Source: a virus
Length of the DNA stretch: 24,820 nt
Direction: 5' to 3' (one strand)
Virus record (IMG/VR): IMGVR_UViG_3300042569_000097
Coordinates: 1 to 24,820 of that record
Shown here: piece after piece, positions 4,418-24,820 of the stretch
How the letters are laid out: each line of letters starts with the position of its first letter
Numbering within the stretch: the first letter of the stretch is position 1
Notes under the pieces: generated by a model
Told to the model about the DNA's origin: nothing
Databases searched by the model: none
What the model saw: the letters and a program-made list of their open reading frames with translations, nothing else
Translations under genes and position numbers: made by a program

Positions 4418-4927
4418 ATGAAACGTTGTTGGAAATGTTCCACCTTTAAATTAACAACTGAATTTGTTAAAAACAAATCTAAAAAGGATGGGCTTTCCTC
4501 TGAGTGTAAAGAATGTAAAAGAACTCAAGATAAAGAATACGGGTTTAAAAATAAACAAGTAATTCAAGCACGAGCATCTGCTTGGTATTATGATAATTAC
4601 GAACACGCTAGAAAAATACGTAATGAATATAGTAGACAATGGATAGTAAATAATCCAGATAAAAACACAGCAAAGTCTAATTTATATAGAGCAAGAAAGT
4701 TAAACGCTTCTCCAAGCTGGTTAACGAATGAACAGAAATCTCAAATAGATTCTATTTATTGGTTAGCTCGTTTACAACAAGAATTAAATGACGAGCAATA
4801 TCACGTGGACCATATAGTTCCTTTAAAAGGAAAAACTGTTTGTGGATTACACGTTCCTTGGAATCTGCAGATACTTTCTGCTAAAAAGAACATGACTAAA
4901 GGGAATAGATTAAATGCCTATATTTAG
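4418..4927 (+). CDS. HNH endonuclease with N-terminal zinc finger
   Basis: The 169-residue protein has two CxxC pairs at the N-terminus (CWKC ... CKEC), then a Lys/Arg/Tyr-rich helical linker. The C-terminal HNH core is HVDHIVPL, followed by GLHVPWNLQILS and NMTKGNR. It is a homing-type nuclease common in phages. The ATG at 4418 is preferred because AAGGAG precedes it by 4 bases. An in-frame ATG at 4358 lies inside the post-capsid hairpin and has no ribosome site. The gene is visibly more AT-rich than capsid and fibre genes, a sign of separate origin. Its last 14 bases overlap the start of the long fibre gene, so it sits exactly at a gene junction. Confidence 0.85.
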   Translation: MKRCWKCSTFKLTTEFVKNKSKKDGLSSECKECKRTQDKEYGFKNKQVIQARASAWYYDNYEHARKIRNEYSRQWIVNNPDKNTAKSNLYRARKLNASPSWLTNEQKSQIDSIYWLARLQQELNDEQYHVDHIVPLKGKTVCGLHVPWNLQILSAKKNMTKGNRLNAYI

Positions 4928-7562
4928 AGGAGCAGGTGGTGCTGGTGATGCCACTAATGACGCTACAGTAACCGCTGTTCAAGCTGCTGCTACATCTGCA
5001 GCAACCTCAGCCACTAACGCTGCTAACTCAGCCACCGCTGCAGCTAACTCAGCCAGTGGTGCTGCTACATCTGCAACCAACGCTTCCAATTCAGCTACGA
5101 CTGCTGCAGGTCAAGCCACGACTGCTGCAGGACACGCTTCCTCTGCATCTACATTCGCTACTAATTCTTCGTTGTCTGCAGACGATTCTGCTGACTCTGC
5201 TACAGAAGCCGAAGGCTATGCGTCAGAAGCCTTTGACTATAAAGTTGAAGCATCTGTTTCCGCTGGTGCTGCTTCTGATTCTGAAGATGCTGCTGCTGCC
5301 TCTGCTGCCTTAGCAGAAGGTGCTGTAGATGATGCTCTTGCTCTCTACGGTGACGCTGCTGCATTAGACGCTGCTGTTACTGCTGCTCAGTTAGCAGAAA
5401 CCAATGCAGAGACTGCAGAGACTAATGCTGAAACTGCTGCAACTACAGCTACTAATGCTGCCTCTACCGCTACAACACAAGCAACCAACGCTGCTGCTTC
5501 TGCCTCTGCTGCTAATGCTGATGCTACTGCTGCTTCGATTGATGCTAATGAAGCTCAAGCTGCTGCAATCGCTGCACAGTCTGCAGTTAATAACGCTGAA
5601 GCTATCTACGGCTCTCTTGAGGATATTCAACAAGCAGAAGCAAACTCAGAAGCTAACCGTGATGCTGCTGCTGCTAGTGCTACCTCAGCGAGTAACTCAG
5701 CAAGCACTGCCACCACACAAGCTGGTATTGCTACTACACAGGCTACTTCTGCCTCTGCTAGTGCTGCTGCTGCATCCGCTGTAGCTCTCGGTAACGAGCC
5801 AGTTCGCCACTCAGTTCGCCCAAGCCTCTTGCTAGACTTTGCCAACACCAAGACCCTAGACCCTCGCATCACTTTCACAAGAGCATCTACTGGTACTTTC
5901 TATGATGGTAAGACTGTAGCTAAGGCTGAGGAGAATTTGTTGTTGCAAACAGTAGATATGGGGGGTGTTTTCTATACCTCCTCCGCAACTGGTACTGCTT
6001 CTGTTCCGACTAAAACCTCTAACTATGGCGTAGCCCCAGATGGAACAACAACTGCTGGTCGCTATCAATTAAATTTAAATGGTGGAACAAGTGTTAATGA
6101 TATTGCTCGAGTTCTACAAGGATATAACTTTGGTGTAGCAGTAACTGCAACTTATTCTGTATATATTAAATCTACAGATGGTACAAGCACTTACGCAGCA
6201 CAAATTATTTCTTCAGATGCGTTAGGACAAGCAATAACAATCACAGGAGCTTGGACTCGATTTACTGTTACAGCAACTTCATTAACTTCTTCAGTCTCCT
6301 ACGGTATTCGTCTGCGTGGGGGACAAACTCCTACCAACTCTGATACTGCTGATATTCTTGTCTGGGGCGCACAGTTAGAACAACGCTCATCCGTAACAGC
6401 CTACACAGCCACCACCACAGCTCCAATCACAAACTACATCCCAGCTCTGCAAAGTGCTGCTAGTGGAGTAGCTCGCTTTGAGCATAATCCTACTACTGGT
6501 GAGAGCCTTGGATTAGAGATTGAGGAGCAGAGGACTAATCTAGTGGTTCGTAGCCAAGAATTCCAAACCACATGGGCAACGACAAACGCCAGCATTACAA
6601 CAGACACAATAATTACTCCTGACGGTACGCTGACGGGTGATAAGTTAGTAGAGGACACAACAAACGGTCAGCATCGTGTTGGCCAAGCTGTAACTGTTTT
6701 GGCTTCAACTACATATACGGCATCGTTTTACGCCAAAGCTGGCGAAAGAACATTAGTACAATGGTTTGATAACGCAGCAGCGGGAAATACGGCTGTAATC
6801 TTCAATTTGTCTGCTGGAACAATAGCATCGGAATACTCGGCGGGTGTTAGCACGATTAGCGCAGTAGGCAACGGCTGGTACAGATGCTCTGTTCGCACAA
6901 CAACTGGGGCAGCGCAAACCACTTTAACGCCAGTATTACGCCTTGTAAGCACAGGAACCACTACTTCATACGCTGGCGATGGCTACTCAGGTCTATATCT
7001 CTGGGGCGCACAACTAGAAGCTGGCTCATTCGCTACTAGCTATATTCCTACGGTAGCATCTCAGGTAACTAGGTCGGCAGACTCTGCTGTTATGACTGGT
7101 ACTAATTTTAGTAGCTGGTATAGGACTGATGAGGGTACTGTTTATAGTGAAGCAAGTACATTAGTTGCAGCAGGAAATAGTAGAACAGCCTGGGCTTTGG
7201 GCTTTACCTCAAGCTCAAATGATTCAACCAGTCTAACCAGTCCTTATACAGGAACAGGTAGGTATAGACTTCTAGGATTTGTAGGCTCTACGGCAAATAT
7301 AGACTTGTACCCAGCAACAACATTTACTAGCGGCTCAATAAATAAAGCTGGATTTGCTTATGCTGCTAATGACTTTGCGCTGTCTGTTAATTCTGGAACT
7401 GTTACAACTGATACATCTGGATACATGAGCCCAGCGATTGATAGATTTTCTATTGGTACTCTGACAACAGGTTCTAACCCACTTAGTGGAACTATCAAGA
7501 AACTTGCCTACTATCCAAAACGCTTGACCAACGCAGAACTTCAAGGCTTAACTACAGTTTAA
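4914..7562 (+). CDS. Long tail fibre A (Ala-rich stalk plus jelly-roll tip domains)
   Basis: This 882-residue fibre starts MPIFRGAGGAGDATNDATVT, an N-terminus seen in podovirus fibres. Residues about 15-290 are a low-complexity Ala/Ser/Thr/Asn stalk with repeated ATNAANSA-like units, probably a trimeric coiled coil. From residue 304 comes a module shared with fibre B. It has SLLLDFANTK and PRITFTRAST, then a first beta-sandwich (about 340-500, ending VWGAQLEQRSSVTAY). A linker follows (GESLGLEIEEQRTNL), then a second beta-sandwich (about 545-710, ending LWGAQLEAGSFATSYIPTV). Last is a LamG-like end finishing GTIKKLAYYPKRLTNAELQ. These are carbohydrate-binding-type folds, so receptor recognition is inferred. 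No depolymerase active site is evident. The start lies within the HNH gene end, with AAAGGGAA upstream. Confidence 0.8.
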   Translation: MPIFRGAGGAGDATNDATVTAVQAAATSAATSATNAANSATAAANSASGAATSATNASNSATTAAGQATTAAGHASSASTFATNSSLSADDSADSATEAEGYASEAFDYKVEASVSAGAASDSEDAAAASAALAEGAVDDALALYGDAAALDAAVTAAQLAETNAETAETNAETAATTATNAASTATTQATNAAASASAANADATAASIDANEAQAAAIAAQSAVNNAEAIYGSLEDIQQAEANSEANRDAAAASATSASNSASTATTQAGIATTQATSASASAAAASAVALGNEPVRHSVRPSLLLDFANTKTLDPRITFTRASTGTFYDGKTVAKAEENLLLQTVDMGGVFYTSSATGTASVPTKTSNYGVAPDGTTTAGRYQLNLNGGTSVNDIARVLQGYNFGVAVTATYSVYIKSTDGTSTYAAQIISSDALGQAITITGAWTRFTVTATSLTSSVSYGIRLRGGQTPTNSDTADILVWGAQLEQRSSVTAYTATTTAPITNYIPALQSAASGVARFEHNPTTGESLGLEIEEQRTNLVVRSQEFQTTWATTNASITTDTIITPDGTLTGDKLVEDTTNGQHRVGQAVTVLASTTYTASFYAKAGERTLVQWFDNAAAGNTAVIFNLSAGTIASEYSAGVSTISAVGNGWYRCSVRTTTGAAQTTLTPVLRLVSTGTTTSYAGDGYSGLYLWGAQLEAGSFATSYIPTVASQVTRSADSAVMTGTNFSSWYRTDEGTVYSEASTLVAAGNSRTAWALGFTSSSNDSTSLTSPYTGTGRYRLLGFVGSTANIDLYPATTFTSGSINKAGFAYAANDFALSVNSGTVTTDTSGYMSPAIDRFSIGTLTTGSNPLSGTIKKLAYYPKRLTNAELQGLTTV
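5823..7562 (+). repeat. Fibre tip module, copy 1 (in fibre A)
   Basis: This segment encodes fibre A residues 304-882, paralogous to fibre B residues 60-643 (8557-10311). Short stretches are identical at DNA level, for example a 17-base match CAGAGGACTAATCTAGT (6528-6544 and 9301-9317) and ACTATCAAGAAACT (7491-7504 and 10243-10256). Other parts are diverged, especially the first sandwich and the last 150 residues. Confidence 0.8.
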
Positions 7563-8379: not shown

Positions 8380-10311
8380 ATGCCGTCACTTATTGGCAAC
8401 AAACCAAACCAAGTCCCTTCAAACGGTGACTTAGGTACTTTAGCTTTTCAAGATAGCAATGCTGTCAATATTGTTGGCGGTACTGCTGTTGTTGATAACT
8501 TAACTGCGGACAGTATCAACCTTAGAATTGACCATGACCTCAGTAACATCTCTCCTTCGCTACTCTTAGACTTTGCTAATACCAAAGCATTAGACCCAAG
8601 GATTACCTTTACTAGAGCCAGTACTGCTTCCTTCTATGATGGCAGAACTACAGCCAAAGCTGAGGAGAATTTGATATCATATAGCCAAGAGTTTGATAAT
8701 GCTTACTGGTCTAAGAACGCTTCTACAGTAACAACCAACACTTCTGTAGCTCCTGACGGAACAACAACCGCAGAAACATTAACTGCGTCTGCTGGAACTG
8801 CTCTAGCACCAAGAACATTTCCAACAACTTTAACTGGTATTACAAGCACAGTCCATGCAATTTCTATTTTTGCAAAAGCTGGAACAAATAACTTTTTACA
8901 AATTACCGATGCTACAGTTGGCTTTCATGCCAATTTTGATTTATCTGCTGGTACAGTAGGGACATCTGCATCTTGTACCCCATCTATTGTTTCTGCTGGA
9001 AATGGATGGCATAGATGTATAGTTACTTACACAAGCGGTGGTACGGATATAAGACCGCTATTCGTACTTGTGACAGGTTCTTCCGTAGCAAGACTTGCGA
9101 CATTTAATCCTGTCGGTACTGAAACAATCTTGTTATGGGGCGCACAACAGGAGCAACGCAGCGCAGTATCCGCATACACTCCAACAACTACTGCACCGAT
9201 TACCAATTACATCCCTGCTTTAAGAACAGCACAAGCTGGTCAAGCAAGATTTGACCATGCTCCGCTAACTGGAGAAAGTCTGGGATTGTTGATAGAGGAA
9301 CAGAGGACTAATCTAGTTACCTATTCTGACGATTTAGCAAACGCTGCTTGGTCTAAGGTGGGAGCTAGTGTTACCAGTAATGTTTTAGTTTCTCCTGACG
9401 GGACTTTAACTAGCGACAAGTTAGTTGAAGATACTAGCACAGGCTCACACAGGATTGAACAAAATGGAACTACAACAATTACAAATCCAGTAACATTTTC
9501 TGTTTTTGCTAAAGCTGCTGAACGAAATCAAATTAGCTTACAAATTGTTGATAACGGAACAGGCAGCAACGGCGGTAGTGTTTACTTTAATCTTTCCACA
9601 GGGGTTGCATTTAGTGCTGCTGTAGATGGTTCTGGAGCTGGTGCTTCCGCAACAATAACTGCTGTAGGTAATGGCTGGTATCGATGCTCCTTTACTGTCA
9701 CAACTAACGGCTCTGGAACTGCTGTTAGAGCGAGAACATATTTAAGCACTACTGGAACAACTAGGGCATACACAGGCGATGGCTACTCAGGAATCTACAT
9801 CTGGGGAGCGCAGTTAGAAGCAGGAGCTTTTGCTACCTCATACATCCCAACAGTAGCCAGCCAAGTTACTCGTAGTACTGATGCTGCCAGTATGACTGGG
9901 TTAAACTTCTCTAGCTGGTACAGAGCTGATGAGGGTACTTTGTATGCTGAATCTTTTTCAGAATCTGCTAGAACAGTAGCTGCAATCGGACAAGGTTCTT
10001 TTGTAACAAATATTATTTTTAATTTTGCAAACCTTGTGCGGTTTGCTGGAGCAGCCCCTAGCCTAACTTTAGGAACATCCGTAAATGGAAATATAAAATT
10101 AGCTGCTGCGTTAAAGCCAAATGATTTTGCTGTTTCAGCAAACGGAACAGCCGTAGTTACAAGTGCTTTGAATCTAACTATTCAAAGTTTTGCCAATCAA
10201 TTACAAATTGGCTTTTCACCTAGTTCAAGCACTTTAAACGGCACTATCAAGAAACTAGCCTACTACCCAGTTCGCCTACCCAATGCTGAGTTACAGGAGA
10301 TGACATCGTGA
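8380..10311 (+). CDS. Tail fibre B (short anchor plus jelly-roll tip domains)
   Basis: This 643-residue fibre has a short anchor (residues 4-36: LIGNKPNQVP then AFQDSNAVNIVGGTA) instead of fibre A's Ala-rich stalk. From residue 60 the same tip module as fibre A follows: SPSLLLDFANTK, PRITFTRAST, a first beta-sandwich ending LLWGAQQEQRSAVSAY, and a linker with GESLGLLIEEQRTNL. A second sandwich ends IWGAQLEAGAFATSYIPTV, and the final domain ends GTIKKLAYYPVRLPNAELQ. The anchor is shared with fibre C. It is probably a second receptor-binding fibre, with sugar binding inferred from fold type. Its TGA overlaps the GTG start of fibre C by 3 bases (10309-10310 plus the preceding G). Confidence 0.8.
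   Translation: MPSLIGNKPNQVPSNGDLGTLAFQDSNAVNIVGGTAVVDNLTADSINLRIDHDLSNISPSLLLDFANTKALDPRITFTRASTASFYDGRTTAKAEENLISYSQEFDNAYWSKNASTVTTNTSVAPDGTTTAETLTASAGTALAPRTFPTTLTGITSTVHAISIFAKAGTNNFLQITDATVGFHANFDLSAGTVGTSASCTPSIVSAGNGWHRCIVTYTSGGTDIRPLFVLVTGSSVARLATFNPVGTETILLWGAQQEQRSAVSAYTPTTTAPITNYIPALRTAQAGQARFDHAPLTGESLGLLIEEQRTNLVTYSDDLANAAWSKVGASVTSNVLVSPDGTLTSDKLVEDTSTGSHRIEQNGTTTITNPVTFSVFAKAAERNQISLQIVDNGTGSNGGSVYFNLSTGVAFSAAVDGSGAGASATITAVGNGWYRCSFTVTTNGSGTAVRARTYLSTTGTTRAYTGDGYSGIYIWGAQLEAGAFATSYIPTVASQVTRSTDAASMTGLNFSSWYRADEGTLYAESFSESARTVAAIGQGSFVTNIIFNFANLVRFAGAAPSLTLGTSVNGNIKLAAALKPNDFAVSANGTAVVTSALNLTIQSFANQLQIGFSPSSSTLNGTIKKLAYYPVRLPNAELQEMTS
8557..10311 (+). repeat. Fibre tip module, copy 2 (in fibre B)
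   Basis: This segment encodes fibre B residues 60-643, the paralogue of fibre A residues 304-882. The two modules have nearly equal length (579 and 584 residues) and the same domain order. This indicates a duplication followed by divergence, or import of a related fibre. Confidence 0.8.
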
Positions 10312-22922: not shown

Positions 22923-23243
22923 CTATTTGTAATACTTATCGTTTACTTCGTCGTAATTCTCTATCAAAAACTCCAAATAATGCTGAATCTTCTTTAGGTC
23001 TTCTTTTCCGTTCTTGTAAGGGAAACGAAGTATGTATTTTACCACATTATGTGACCACGGGTCCAGCCCCCAATCAAGGGCAATAGTCCACGGCTGTACG
23101 CCTTTTTTGTAGTGTGTACCACCTACTTGACGACTTAAAGTGCCGCCTTCTTTAACCTTGTCGTCAAAATCTTTAATTAAGTCAGCTAAGGTTTCTTCAC
23201 GAATATAGCCAAAAGGCGTTGGCATTGCTACTGGGTTGGTCAT
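22923..23243 (-). CDS. DUF3310 protein (related to T7 gp1.7 region)
   Basis: This 106-residue protein has the conserved core VGGTHYKKGVQPWTIALDWG, then NVVKYILRF and KNGKEDLKKIQHYLEFLIE. This is the DUF3310 pattern; T7 gp1.7, a dGMP/dTMP kinase, contains such a region. A nucleotide-metabolism role would fit the adjacent ribonucleotide reductase, but no Walker motif is present and activity cannot be claimed. The start overlaps the exonuclease stop by 4 bases (ATGA). Confidence 0.8.
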   Translation of the reverse strand: MTNPVAMPTPFGYIREETLADLIKDFDDKVKEGGTLSRQVGGTHYKKGVQPWTIALDWGLDPWSHNVVKYILRFPYKNGKEDLKKIQHYLEFLIENYDEVNDKYYK

Positions 23244-23977
23244 ACGATTCCTTTCACTTCTACACGACCACGAGTTGATTTAGTTCCTTGACTCCATGTA
23301 CCGCAATCACGACACTGGTAGCGTTGGTATGCACCAGTGGTAGATACCGCTGTACCCCGCTTCTGTAGATGCGTAGATGAGCAGTTAGGACATACAGCGC
23401 CTTCGGAGAACATATTGTGATTCGGATGGTTCTTAATCCAAGGACGGAGTGTGTCGTATAACGACTCTAACAACACCACGTCTTGAATGTTATAAGACTC
23501 CATGCGCTTCCACGCATCTTTGTCACCCTTCATGCACTTTGTCCAAAGTTCCATGCCTTCATGCTCTTGCTTCTTACCTAAGCCAAGACGCTGTGCTACG
23601 AAGTCCAACTTGTTACTAGGAAACCTAAAGTTGCTACGAACAACACGAAGTAAATCAATCTGTTTATAGGGACTAGGAGGACTAAAATCATTGATGATGA
23701 ATTCCTTATTAATAGTAGGAATATCAAACTTATTGCCATTATAGTGAACCACAGCGTCTGCATCGGAGAGAAGTCCATGAAGTCCTTTCAACATCTTCTT
23801 GGTTTTGGAATTATGAACAGAGTCAAATACAACAGTTTCATCACCGTGCCACTTCGCAGCATAGCAGAGCATATTAGACGAATCAATGATGTGGTTAGGC
23901 GAGATGTTCTGGTCCCACAGTCCCCACACCAAAGCTGTCATCGGCGCAGTTTCAATATCGAGAAGAAGGATTCTCAT
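23240..23977 (-). CDS. DnaQ/RNase H-fold 3'-5' exonuclease with C-terminal zinc ribbon
   Basis: This 245-residue protein carries the DEDDy set. Asp7 and Glu9 are in LLLDIETAP (Exo I), Asp85 is in HYNGNKFDIPTINKEF (Exo II), and Tyr162/Asp166 are in YNIQD (Exo III). Residues about 190-230 form a zinc ribbon (Cys196-x2-Cys199, Cys222-x2-Cys225, YQCRDCGTWSQ). It is probably a single-strand DNA or RNA exonuclease for host DNA degradation or replication processing. It is too short to be a polymerase, and the polymerase part is absent. The start overlaps the upstream stop by 4 bases. YprB-like exonucleases are related. Confidence 0.88.
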   Translation of the reverse strand: MRILLLDIETAPMTALVWGLWDQNISPNHIIDSSNMLCYAAKWHGDETVVFDSVHNSKTKKMLKGLHGLLSDADAVVHYNGNKFDIPTINKEFIINDFSPPSPYKQIDLLRVVRSNFRFPSNKLDFVAQRLGLGKKQEHEGMELWTKCMKGDKDAWKRMESYNIQDVVLLESLYDTLRPWIKNHPNHNMFSEGAVCPNCSSTHLQKRGTAVSTTGAYQRYQCRDCGTWSQGTKSTRGRVEVKGIV

Positions 23978-24270
23978 GCCTCGTCATCCCAGTCGCTAAA
24001 CAAGTCACTACGCTCACGATTCTTTAGAACCAGTTGGTACTCCTCAGTGGTGATGTAGTTGACAGCGCCATCGTGCATTGTGATTTCAGGAAAGTCTGTT
24101 AGAAACACAAGTCTATCCTTAATTGGATAGCTATACTGCAGTGTCAAGAAGTCAGCGAACTTACCGATTAACTTCACCCACGACACATCATAAGTAAAAT
24201 CACCATCATAGCTTTGTACACCGTCTAAGTCTGCTAGTTCAATCTTCAGGTTAATTTCTTTATCACTCAT
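23974..24270 (-). CDS. Unknown phage protein in DNA-metabolism operon
   Basis: The most likely start is ATG 24270 (MSDKEINLKIELADLDG; 98 residues), with GGAG upstream and an 8-base overlap with the nuclease stop. In-frame ATGs at 24273, 24279 and 24285 are alternatives. The protein is acidic and beta-rich with a middle segment VSWVKLIGKFADFLTLQYSY, and ends RERSDLFSDWDDEA. No catalytic or metal-binding pattern is seen. Its tight overlaps on both sides place it in the same transcript as nuclease and exonuclease. Confidence 0.65.
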   Translation of the reverse strand: MSDKEINLKIELADLDGVQSYDGDFTYDVSWVKLIGKFADFLTLQYSYPIKDRLVFLTDFPEITMHDGAVNYITTEEYQLVLKNRERSDLFSDWDDEA

Positions 24271-24616
24271 CATCTTCATCTCCATTGTTAGCCATCAAAT
24301 CAAATAAAAGTTCTGCATCAATTACAGCGAGTGGTTTCGAATTGTTTTGCTTGATAATCACAATCGGTTCACCGTCGCCATGTTTCTTGCATTGCTCGTA
24401 GTAATTATACACCGCAATCTTTGCTAAAGACTTACATTCAAATGTAGCTGGCAGTTCCTCTTTAGCAAACTGAGACATTACTACATCTTCACCGTGGCTT
24501 CCCATCGGACAACTGCGTAAGTCCTTGTCCGTCAACTGAGGATACCTCTCCAGCAACTGCTTTACGGTCCACTGCTGGAGCAGCCTTCCTTTCTGTTTTG
24601 CGCTGCTTGTTTTCAC
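24263..24616 (-). CDS. PD-(D/E)XK nuclease (putative phage endonuclease)
   Basis: I chose GTG 24616, preceded by AAAGG at 9 bases, giving MKTSSAKQKGRLLQQWTVKQ, the usual start of phage putative PDDEXK endonucleases, and 117 residues. Catalytic-like residues are Asp44 (HGEDVVMS), Glu60 and Lys62 (TFECKSL). Then come YNYYEQCKKHGDGEPIVIIK and PLAVIDAELL. The family includes resolvase-like enzymes for phage DNA processing. An upstream ATG at 24712 in frame encodes unrelated-looking sequence and overlaps the neighbouring gene. The first 128 bases overlap the 3' end of the upstream gene in another frame. Confidence 0.8.
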   Translation of the reverse strand: MKTSSAKQKGRLLQQWTVKQLLERYPQLTDKDLRSCPMGSHGEDVVMSQFAKEELPATFECKSLAKIAVYNYYEQCKKHGDGEPIVIIKQNNSKPLAVIDAELLFDLMANNGDEDDE

Positions 24617-24820
24617 GATTGATAACCTTTCGTTTAGTAATCCATGATTTAGGAATGTGCATCCGTGCATTGCTGTTGTCTCCCGATACAGTCGATGCAA
24701 GACAGATTCCATCTTTTGTTTCTGCGATTAAAAACCCTACTGTGCATACATTGTGAATATCAACTTTTACGTTGTCTTCCCAACCTCCATCAGATACAGC
24801 ATCAACCCATTCAACATAGA
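24489..24820 (-). CDS. Conserved phage protein, 5' part beyond right edge
   Basis: The open frame runs off the right edge and stops at TGA 24491-24489. 109 residues are visible, beginning YVEWVDAVSDGGWEDNVKVD, then VGFLIAETKDGICLAST, then NSNARMHIPKSWITKRKVI. This resembles small beta-rich phage proteins with the VxWVDAxxDGGW ... GFLI ... IPKxWI pattern. The tail after about residue 65 (RENKQRKTERKAAPAVDRKA) is basic, low in complexity and overprinted on the nuclease start. The function is unknown. Confidence 0.7.
   Translation of the reverse strand, partial: YVEWVDAVSDGGWEDNVKVDIHNVCTVGFLIAETKDGICLASTVSGDNSNARMHIPKSWITKRKVINRENKQRKTERKAAPAVDRKAVAGEVSSVDGQGLTQLSDGKPR

Follow-up and report, generated by a model that had tools for sequence, protein, structure and literature searches.

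How does a run of phage DNA come to be read in two frames, and does the second reading do anything? The question is raised by one end of an uncultured virus record 24.8 kb long (the window). On the minus strand, positions 24489-24616, exactly 128 nt, serve both as the end of a small upstream gene and as the beginning of a nuclease gene, as a preliminary description made from the letters alone had stated. The upstream gene (24489-24820 (-)) is 5'-open at the window edge, with its start expected outside the window, 250 nt before that of the nuclease, and it stops at a TGA (24491-24489 (-)) that spans nuclease codons 42-43 at a synonymous site. Its product would consist of a predicted Sm/LSm-like barrel and an overprinted tail: the 42 residues encoded over the first 42 of the nuclease are K/R-rich at first, which bears out the basic character earlier ascribed to them. 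The nuclease gene (24263-24616 (-); 117 aa, phrog_244, putative PD-(D/E)XK) runs from a GTG at 24616-24614 to a stop at 24263. The AAAGG site named in the preliminary description, its ribosome-binding site, is indeed present at 24630-24626 (-), 9 nt from the GTG and inside the sequence for the last predicted barrel strand of the upstream protein (KRKV). A longest-ORF call would choose an in-frame ATG at 24710-24712 (-), and this lies 96 nt too early, the distance originally given.

A two-frame junction and its relatives

Relatives were gathered with the nuclease (44 loci), the upstream protein (best 80 of 104 relatives), a nuclease of phages that lack the upstream gene (best 80 of 170), a profile (best 80 of at least 498) and a divergent upstream protein (70 loci). 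The 254 loci with both genes came down to 148 distinct IMG/VR regions once duplicates were removed. Excluded from all counts were 18 loci that have the upstream protein and lack a full nuclease start: contig-end loci, the broken nucleases L039, L045, L067/L230 and L068/L231, and five distant homologues (L349-L353). The two genes overlap in the same frame in 146 of the 148 regions, by 59 to 128 nt. The tail is variable in length, the point on which the preliminary description had asked for a comparison: the overlap measures 59 nt in 7 regions, 83 in 4, 86 in 6, 89 in 12, 92 in 44, 95 in 8, 107 in 38, 119 in 22 and 128 in 5. The first 20 codons of the tail (24558-24617 (-) in the window) are open in every relative, in keeping with the minimum overlap of 59 nt. 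Relatives that simply end the upstream gene before the nuclease, which would have pointed to a recent stop loss in the window, are absent from these 148 regions; the two regions without direct overlap (L013 and L062) carry an HNH gene inserted at the junction.

The nuclease start is equally consistent across relatives. An AAGGA, AAAGG or AGGA motif precedes the start codon in 146/146 overlapped loci, with the AGG exactly 9 nt away in 145; the codon itself is TTG in 139, GTG in 7 and ATG in none. Homology to phages without the upstream gene begins at this same GTG/TTG position. The ATG at 24712 is ruled out as the start, because in 126 of the 146 overlapped relatives an in-frame stop interrupts the 96 nt between it and the GTG/TTG, and all 146 have the SD at the latter; its role as a start is not conserved. 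A hairpin is predicted around the nuclease SD and start (24580-24650 (-); -12 kcal/mol, z -2.2).

Both proteins would be made from one mRNA, with the nuclease initiated independently from its own SD and a weak start codon (TTG or GTG) inside the upstream gene. Classical termination-reinitiation coupling is unlikely: the upstream gene terminates 20-43 codons beyond the nuclease start, against a reinitiation window of about seven codons given in PMC2988022, which leaves independent initiation at the weak start codon as the likeliest route. We considered that TTG might be kept since an ATG would place H, N, D or Y at upstream residue 84. This idea is weakened because the last strand of the model ends at residue 82 and because the TTG may come from a single ancestor; nor do L013 and L062, where the nuclease has an ATG, count as clean reversions, because the HNH insert itself brought that codon.

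Direction of the overlap

The preliminary description had supposed that one side of the overlap arose by extension into the other, and the relatives tell us which. Alignments with the nuclease start at its N-terminus in 67 phage records, the 40 listed all beginning at query residue 1, while tblastn of the upstream protein against the same 50,697 phage records gave no match. A scan of genome contigs for the upstream protein returned 101 pattern hits, none of them confirmed, and a search of the phage collection with a distant homologue gave nothing useful. In 80 relative loci the nuclease is present without the upstream gene. Where an exonuclease is recognised in such loci, its gene (fen) mostly abuts the nuclease, overlapping by 4, 20 or 26 nt, and the nuclease mostly starts with ATG; in roseophage CRP-738 the annotated exonuclease overlaps the nuclease by 10 nt. 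The polarity is clear: the nuclease is ancestral, and the upstream gene, restricted to a subset of the phages, came to lie between the two and had its 3' end overprinted on the nuclease. The upstream gene grew into the nuclease and not the reverse, because phages without the upstream gene also conserve the N-terminus of the nuclease. One strand is thus coding in two frames, the nuclease frame being conserved and the second kept open.

The two exceptions are natural experiments on this junction. Related HNH ORFs (L013:1516-2011 and L062:2202-2772) sit exactly at the nuclease start; each begins at the old TTG and uses the old SD, and an ATG now opens the nuclease. In both loci the upstream gene has acquired a new K/R-rich tail from the 5' end of the HNH gene. 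In L013 a stop now interrupts the second frame over the nuclease no more than four codons from the new start, and the remainder of that frame is open as far as the old stop; in L062 the HNH ORF itself has taken over the 95-nt tail in the nuclease. The first nuclease codons of L013 show silent differences from its relatives, of the kind that co-conversion leaves. According to PMC2988022, free-standing homing endonuclease genes of T4 overlap their upstream ORFs by 11-24 nt. The two HNH genes at our junction recall that situation, and differ from it in beginning at the old nuclease start codon and, in L062, in reading 95 nt into the nuclease. In other loci the nuclease is broken and the upstream protein intact: L045:1716-2159, L039, L067 and L068 show a fusion by deletion, an in-frame stop and internal deletions, through either natural loss or assembly error.

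Selection on the tail and competing explanations

We grouped the loci into clusters at 90% identity over 90 nt, obtaining 24 with the upstream gene and 21 control clusters without it. A second-frame stop before +59 occurs in 0/24 of the former and 19/21 of the latter (Fisher 9e-11; the clusters are not independent of each other). When nuclease codons were resampled synonymously, with protein and codon usage fixed, the probability of an open frame to +59 was 0.08-0.26 per cluster with the upstream gene; the frame is open in all 24. The same resampling in the control gave 0.18-0.22 for the 17 of 21 clusters that have ATG, GTG or TTG at the start, and two are open, in line with expectation. Some of the remaining control clusters have ATA or ATC at the conserved position, and in the roseophage records of this kind that we examined the annotated start lies two codons upstream in the same frame.

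Substitution patterns point the same way. On a tree built from nuclease codons 45-105, counting parsimony changes in one reconstruction each, none of the 30 changes at stop-prone third positions of codons 2-19 is to T. The corresponding figures are 13/83 at harmless sites of the same codons (Fisher p 0.019), 62/161 at stop-prone sites of codons 45-104 (p 3e-6) and 11/25 at stop-prone sites in the control group (p 4e-5). Protection against stops fades after about codon 20, because 6 of 21 stop-prone changes in codons 20-28 are to T. The tail is also more basic than the nuclease sequence dictates: the first 19 tail residues carry a net charge of +4.1, against an expected +1.0 with general codon usage, +1.5 with the 5'-end usage of 60 other genes (22/24 clusters above), +2.55 with the region's own usage (21/24 above) and +3.0 with codons permuted within each gene. 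No such excess is seen in the control group (+0.8, against +0.6 to +1.1 expected).

The preliminary description had proposed synonymous-site conservation as a check. This stood in part: stop-creating changes are avoided in the overlap, but codons 2-19 show no clear loss of synonymous divergence beyond that of the control group, so the tail sequence itself is free and we do not uphold conservation of its exact letters. A further influence, for instance an A-rich translation start, also acts here, because T is scarce at harmless third positions too (13/121 in codons 2-19 against 310/710 further on); the charge excess shrinks when the region's own codon usage (+2.55) or within-gene permutation (+3.0) sets the expectation. 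The tail is selected, but loosely: at least its first 19-20 codons are kept stop-free, the tail stays basic and poor in hydrophobic residues, and its exact sequence drifts with silent changes in the nuclease.

We consider it highly probable that this is 3' overprinting, in which a small upstream gene extended into an older nuclease in a fixed alternative frame and selection has kept the tail open and basic. A passive run-on, with an upstream gene that lacks its own stop reading to the first chance stop and a tail that does nothing, would explain why the stops fall at silent nuclease sites and vary among relatives, why unrelated upstream genes of other phages run on in the same frame, and it accords with the model that long one-phase overlaps need no selection, as set out in PMC3887535. 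It predicts overlaps of control-like length, however, and the 0/24 against 19/21 early stops, the 0/30 changes to T and the excess of positive charge make it improbable as an account of the first 20 codons or so; for the tail beyond about codon 20, with its 6/21 changes to T, it is plausible. Another reading places the constraint on RNA: the A-rich, T-poor 5' end of the nuclease gene would be an mRNA target, for instance of the Sm-like protein itself, through which nuclease translation is controlled, and the openness and charge of the tail would be by-products. Sm-type proteins can bind A-rich RNA, and in codons 2-20 the third positions of 4- and 6-fold codons hold A in 59% and T in 3% of cases when overlapped, against 46% and 27% without the upstream gene. 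Yet T is avoided more at stop-creating sites than at their harmless neighbours (p 0.019), and the charge excess survives permutation of codons within genes, so we regard this reading, too, as decidedly doubtful.

Two further explanations concern the record and the ribosome. The window comes from an uncultured virus, which would leave room for a mistake in assembly or sequencing, or for a recent stop loss confined to one contig; with 146 of 148 distinct regions alike and overlaps of 59 to 128 nt this is ruled out for practical purposes. A frameshift in the overlap, yielding a fusion of the upstream protein with the nuclease, would find an argument in L045, where a deletion joins the upstream frame to the C-terminal half of the nuclease in a 147-aa ORF. 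We reject it as very unlikely: 146/146 loci provide the nuclease with an SD and start of its own, the stop positions vary widely, and L045 stands alone, a single contig that has lost the middle of the nuclease.

Overprinting at the 3' end of an upstream gene is a known phenomenon, and ours is a well-supported new case, ordinary in kind and unusually well documented by its relatives. According to PMC8903798 (PLoS Pathog 2022), overlaps in DNA viruses have a median of 15.6 nt (IQR 8.5-61); with 1- and 4-nt overlaps left out, the most frequent class is the +1 shift, with a median of 14 nt (IQR 8-26). Fonseca et al. 2013 (PMC3887535) propose that the commoner origin is a lengthening of the upstream gene at its 3' end, and that long phase 1 overlaps arise without need of selection. 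The present overlap is like those described in these sources in lying on one strand and in that the upstream gene has grown at its 3' end into an older gene downstream; at 59-128 nt against a median of 14 it is long for its class, and it comes with evidence of selection on the new tail. Neutral run-on and selection are usually hard to tell apart for 3' extensions; here a matched control, in which the same nuclease lacks the upstream gene, and two insertions in nature that part the gene pair separate them, in a family-wide, polarised and replicated case of a disordered protein tail made by overprinting an older gene. We did not find the pair of upstream gene and nuclease described in the open-licence literature that we searched.

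The two proteins, their neighbourhood and other genes at the junction

We have modelled the upstream protein of the close relative L003 with AF2 (32 sequences). The model has strands at residues 15-22, 38-49, 53-61, 64-72 and 76-82, that is, a five-stranded Sm-type barrel; pLDDT exceeds 90 in much of the core, with 40 of 122 residues at 90 or more, and falls to 40-52 beyond residue 90. It is within upstream codon 84 that the nuclease start codon begins. On this model the protein is predicted to fold as an Sm/LSm-like barrel up to a last strand that finishes just ahead of the nuclease start, and everything encoded past that codon is predicted to be a disordered tail. The 50 PDB matches listed by Foldseek are of Sm/LSm type or complexes containing such proteins (best E 5e-3); the 50 entries shown by VIA-align include Sm, LSm and snRNP complexes or their close relatives, the best being the LSm domain of Edc3 (Z 8.3, 63 residues, 3.2 A).

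Sm proteins carry Sm1 and Sm2 sequence motifs with RG(D/N). These are absent here: by eye, alignment A1 reads NARMHIPKxWI at that place, and the upstream protein is accordingly Sm-like in fold and not a member of the Sm family. It matched no Sm family or other entry among Pfam and PDB sequences; PDB sequence searches with the upstream-protein and nuclease alignments gave nothing useful, relatives in BFVD at E <0.001 are unnamed or uncharacterised phage proteins, and a literature search for Sm-like cyanophage proteins found nothing relevant. The predicted five-stranded barrel and disordered C-terminal tail recall Edc3 LSm, archaeal Sm-like proteins and Hfq; the differences are the lack of a sequence match to the Sm family, of RG(D/N) and, in the model, of an N-terminal helix. 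According to the title of PMC5606850 the C-terminal domains of Hfq are acidic, whereas the tail here is basic and overprinted. The distant homologues L349-L353 (38% identity) come from other phages, with no nuclease recognised in the retrieved stretch, and they too finish in a short basic tail where the end is present. In other Sm-type proteins disordered tails add nucleic-acid or partner binding. Judging by its charge, its disorder and the genes around it, the basic tail would probably give the barrel such binding within this replication cassette.

That the downstream gene encodes a PD-(D/E)XK nuclease, as the preliminary description proposed, agrees with the sequence pattern. D44, E60 and K62 are invariant in 35/35 nucleases (D ... 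(D/E)-x-K, with E60-C-K62), and the PHROG 244 profile matches residues 3-113 (E 2.2e-10). Pfam PDDEXK_15 (PF24608) matches 17 of 35 members at E up to 0.1, and the five members scanned stay below its gathering cut-off of 27 (best bit score 22.6). The nuclease model is fairly confident (pLDDT 84.7); Foldseek found no clear match for it, and the VIA-align hits to I-Ssp6803I (Z 3.2) and Hjc (Z 2.6) are weak, ranking below the unrelated Phd/YefM (Z 4.1). We therefore keep the assignment as putative. Likeness to PDDEXK_15 and to the 'RusA-like Holliday junction resolvase' of PHROG 244 lies in the profile match and the D44 and E60-C-K62 residues; apart from the PDDEXK_15 score of the members scanned, the present nucleases differ in their TTG/GTG start and in sharing N-terminal codons with another gene.

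In close relatives the gene order is DNA polymerase, ssDNA-binding protein, 5'-3' exonuclease, upstream gene, nuclease, small acidic gene, RNase H-like exonuclease, DUF3310-like gene and ribonucleotide reductase, where the polymerase, ssDNA-binding protein, 5'-3' exonuclease and DUF3310 names are what we take these genes to be on reading their sequences. Roseophages likewise have an exonuclease before the nuclease, and a DUF3310 gene and ribonucleotide reductase after it. The upstream gene lies between fen and the nuclease and is overlapped by both: its start codon is at -250 or -247 in 140 of 146 overlapped loci and falls 46-139 nt inside fen in the 139 loci where the end of the exonuclease can be placed, so that the small gene shares sequence with both neighbours. 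At its other end the window's nuclease gene overlaps the next gene (23974-24285) by 23 nt (24263-24285), a stretch that encodes an acidic nuclease C-terminus absent from 110-aa relatives. The RNase H-like exonuclease (phrog_403; 23240-23977 (-)) has a zinc-ribbon-like C-terminal stretch. Elsewhere in the window, the C-terminal parts of the proteins encoded at 4914-7562 and 8380-10311 both belong to tail-protein family phrog_5939, and the two are likely paralogues.

The Sm-like gene is not the only one to run into this nuclease. In MW202796.1 (L354:834-1884), which has no Sm-like gene, the exonuclease itself overlaps the nuclease by 80 nt in the same frame, with a tail that is not basic; other small genes overlap it by 68, 68, 68, 35 and 32 nt in DSL-LC02, S-RIM32, S-H9-2, S-SZBM1 and Syn1, respectively. 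An overlap of 32 nt or more was present in 6 of the 16 public phage records examined. The nuclease start followed by AAA would create a TGA in the remaining frame (ATGA or TTGA): genes entering in that frame would end with a 4-nt overlap, and genes entering in the tail frame would run on. Repeated run-on by unrelated genes can be understood because start-AAA closes the one frame and leaves the other open. We propose tentatively, giving it somewhat less than an even chance, that the conserved nuclease N-terminus is a recurrent donor of tails: unrelated genes (the Sm-like barrel, the HNH gene of L062, the MW202796 exonuclease and the small genes of cyanophages) would have been extended in the same frame, and in the Sm-like lineage, the one that our selection tests cover, the tail would have become a selected nucleic-acid-binding arm.

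These overlaps also carry a warning for annotators, since nuclease starts are called too late where an upstream ORF overlaps. This is so in 4 of the 16 public phage records examined, by 48-108 nt: OR032571.1 (L356; 48 nt), KU594606.1 (L362; 108 nt), MW147367.1 (L364; 69 nt) and OL473597.1 (L366; 108 nt). The late starts remove the conserved SAKAKGR-type N-terminus, precisely where the upstream ORF overlaps.
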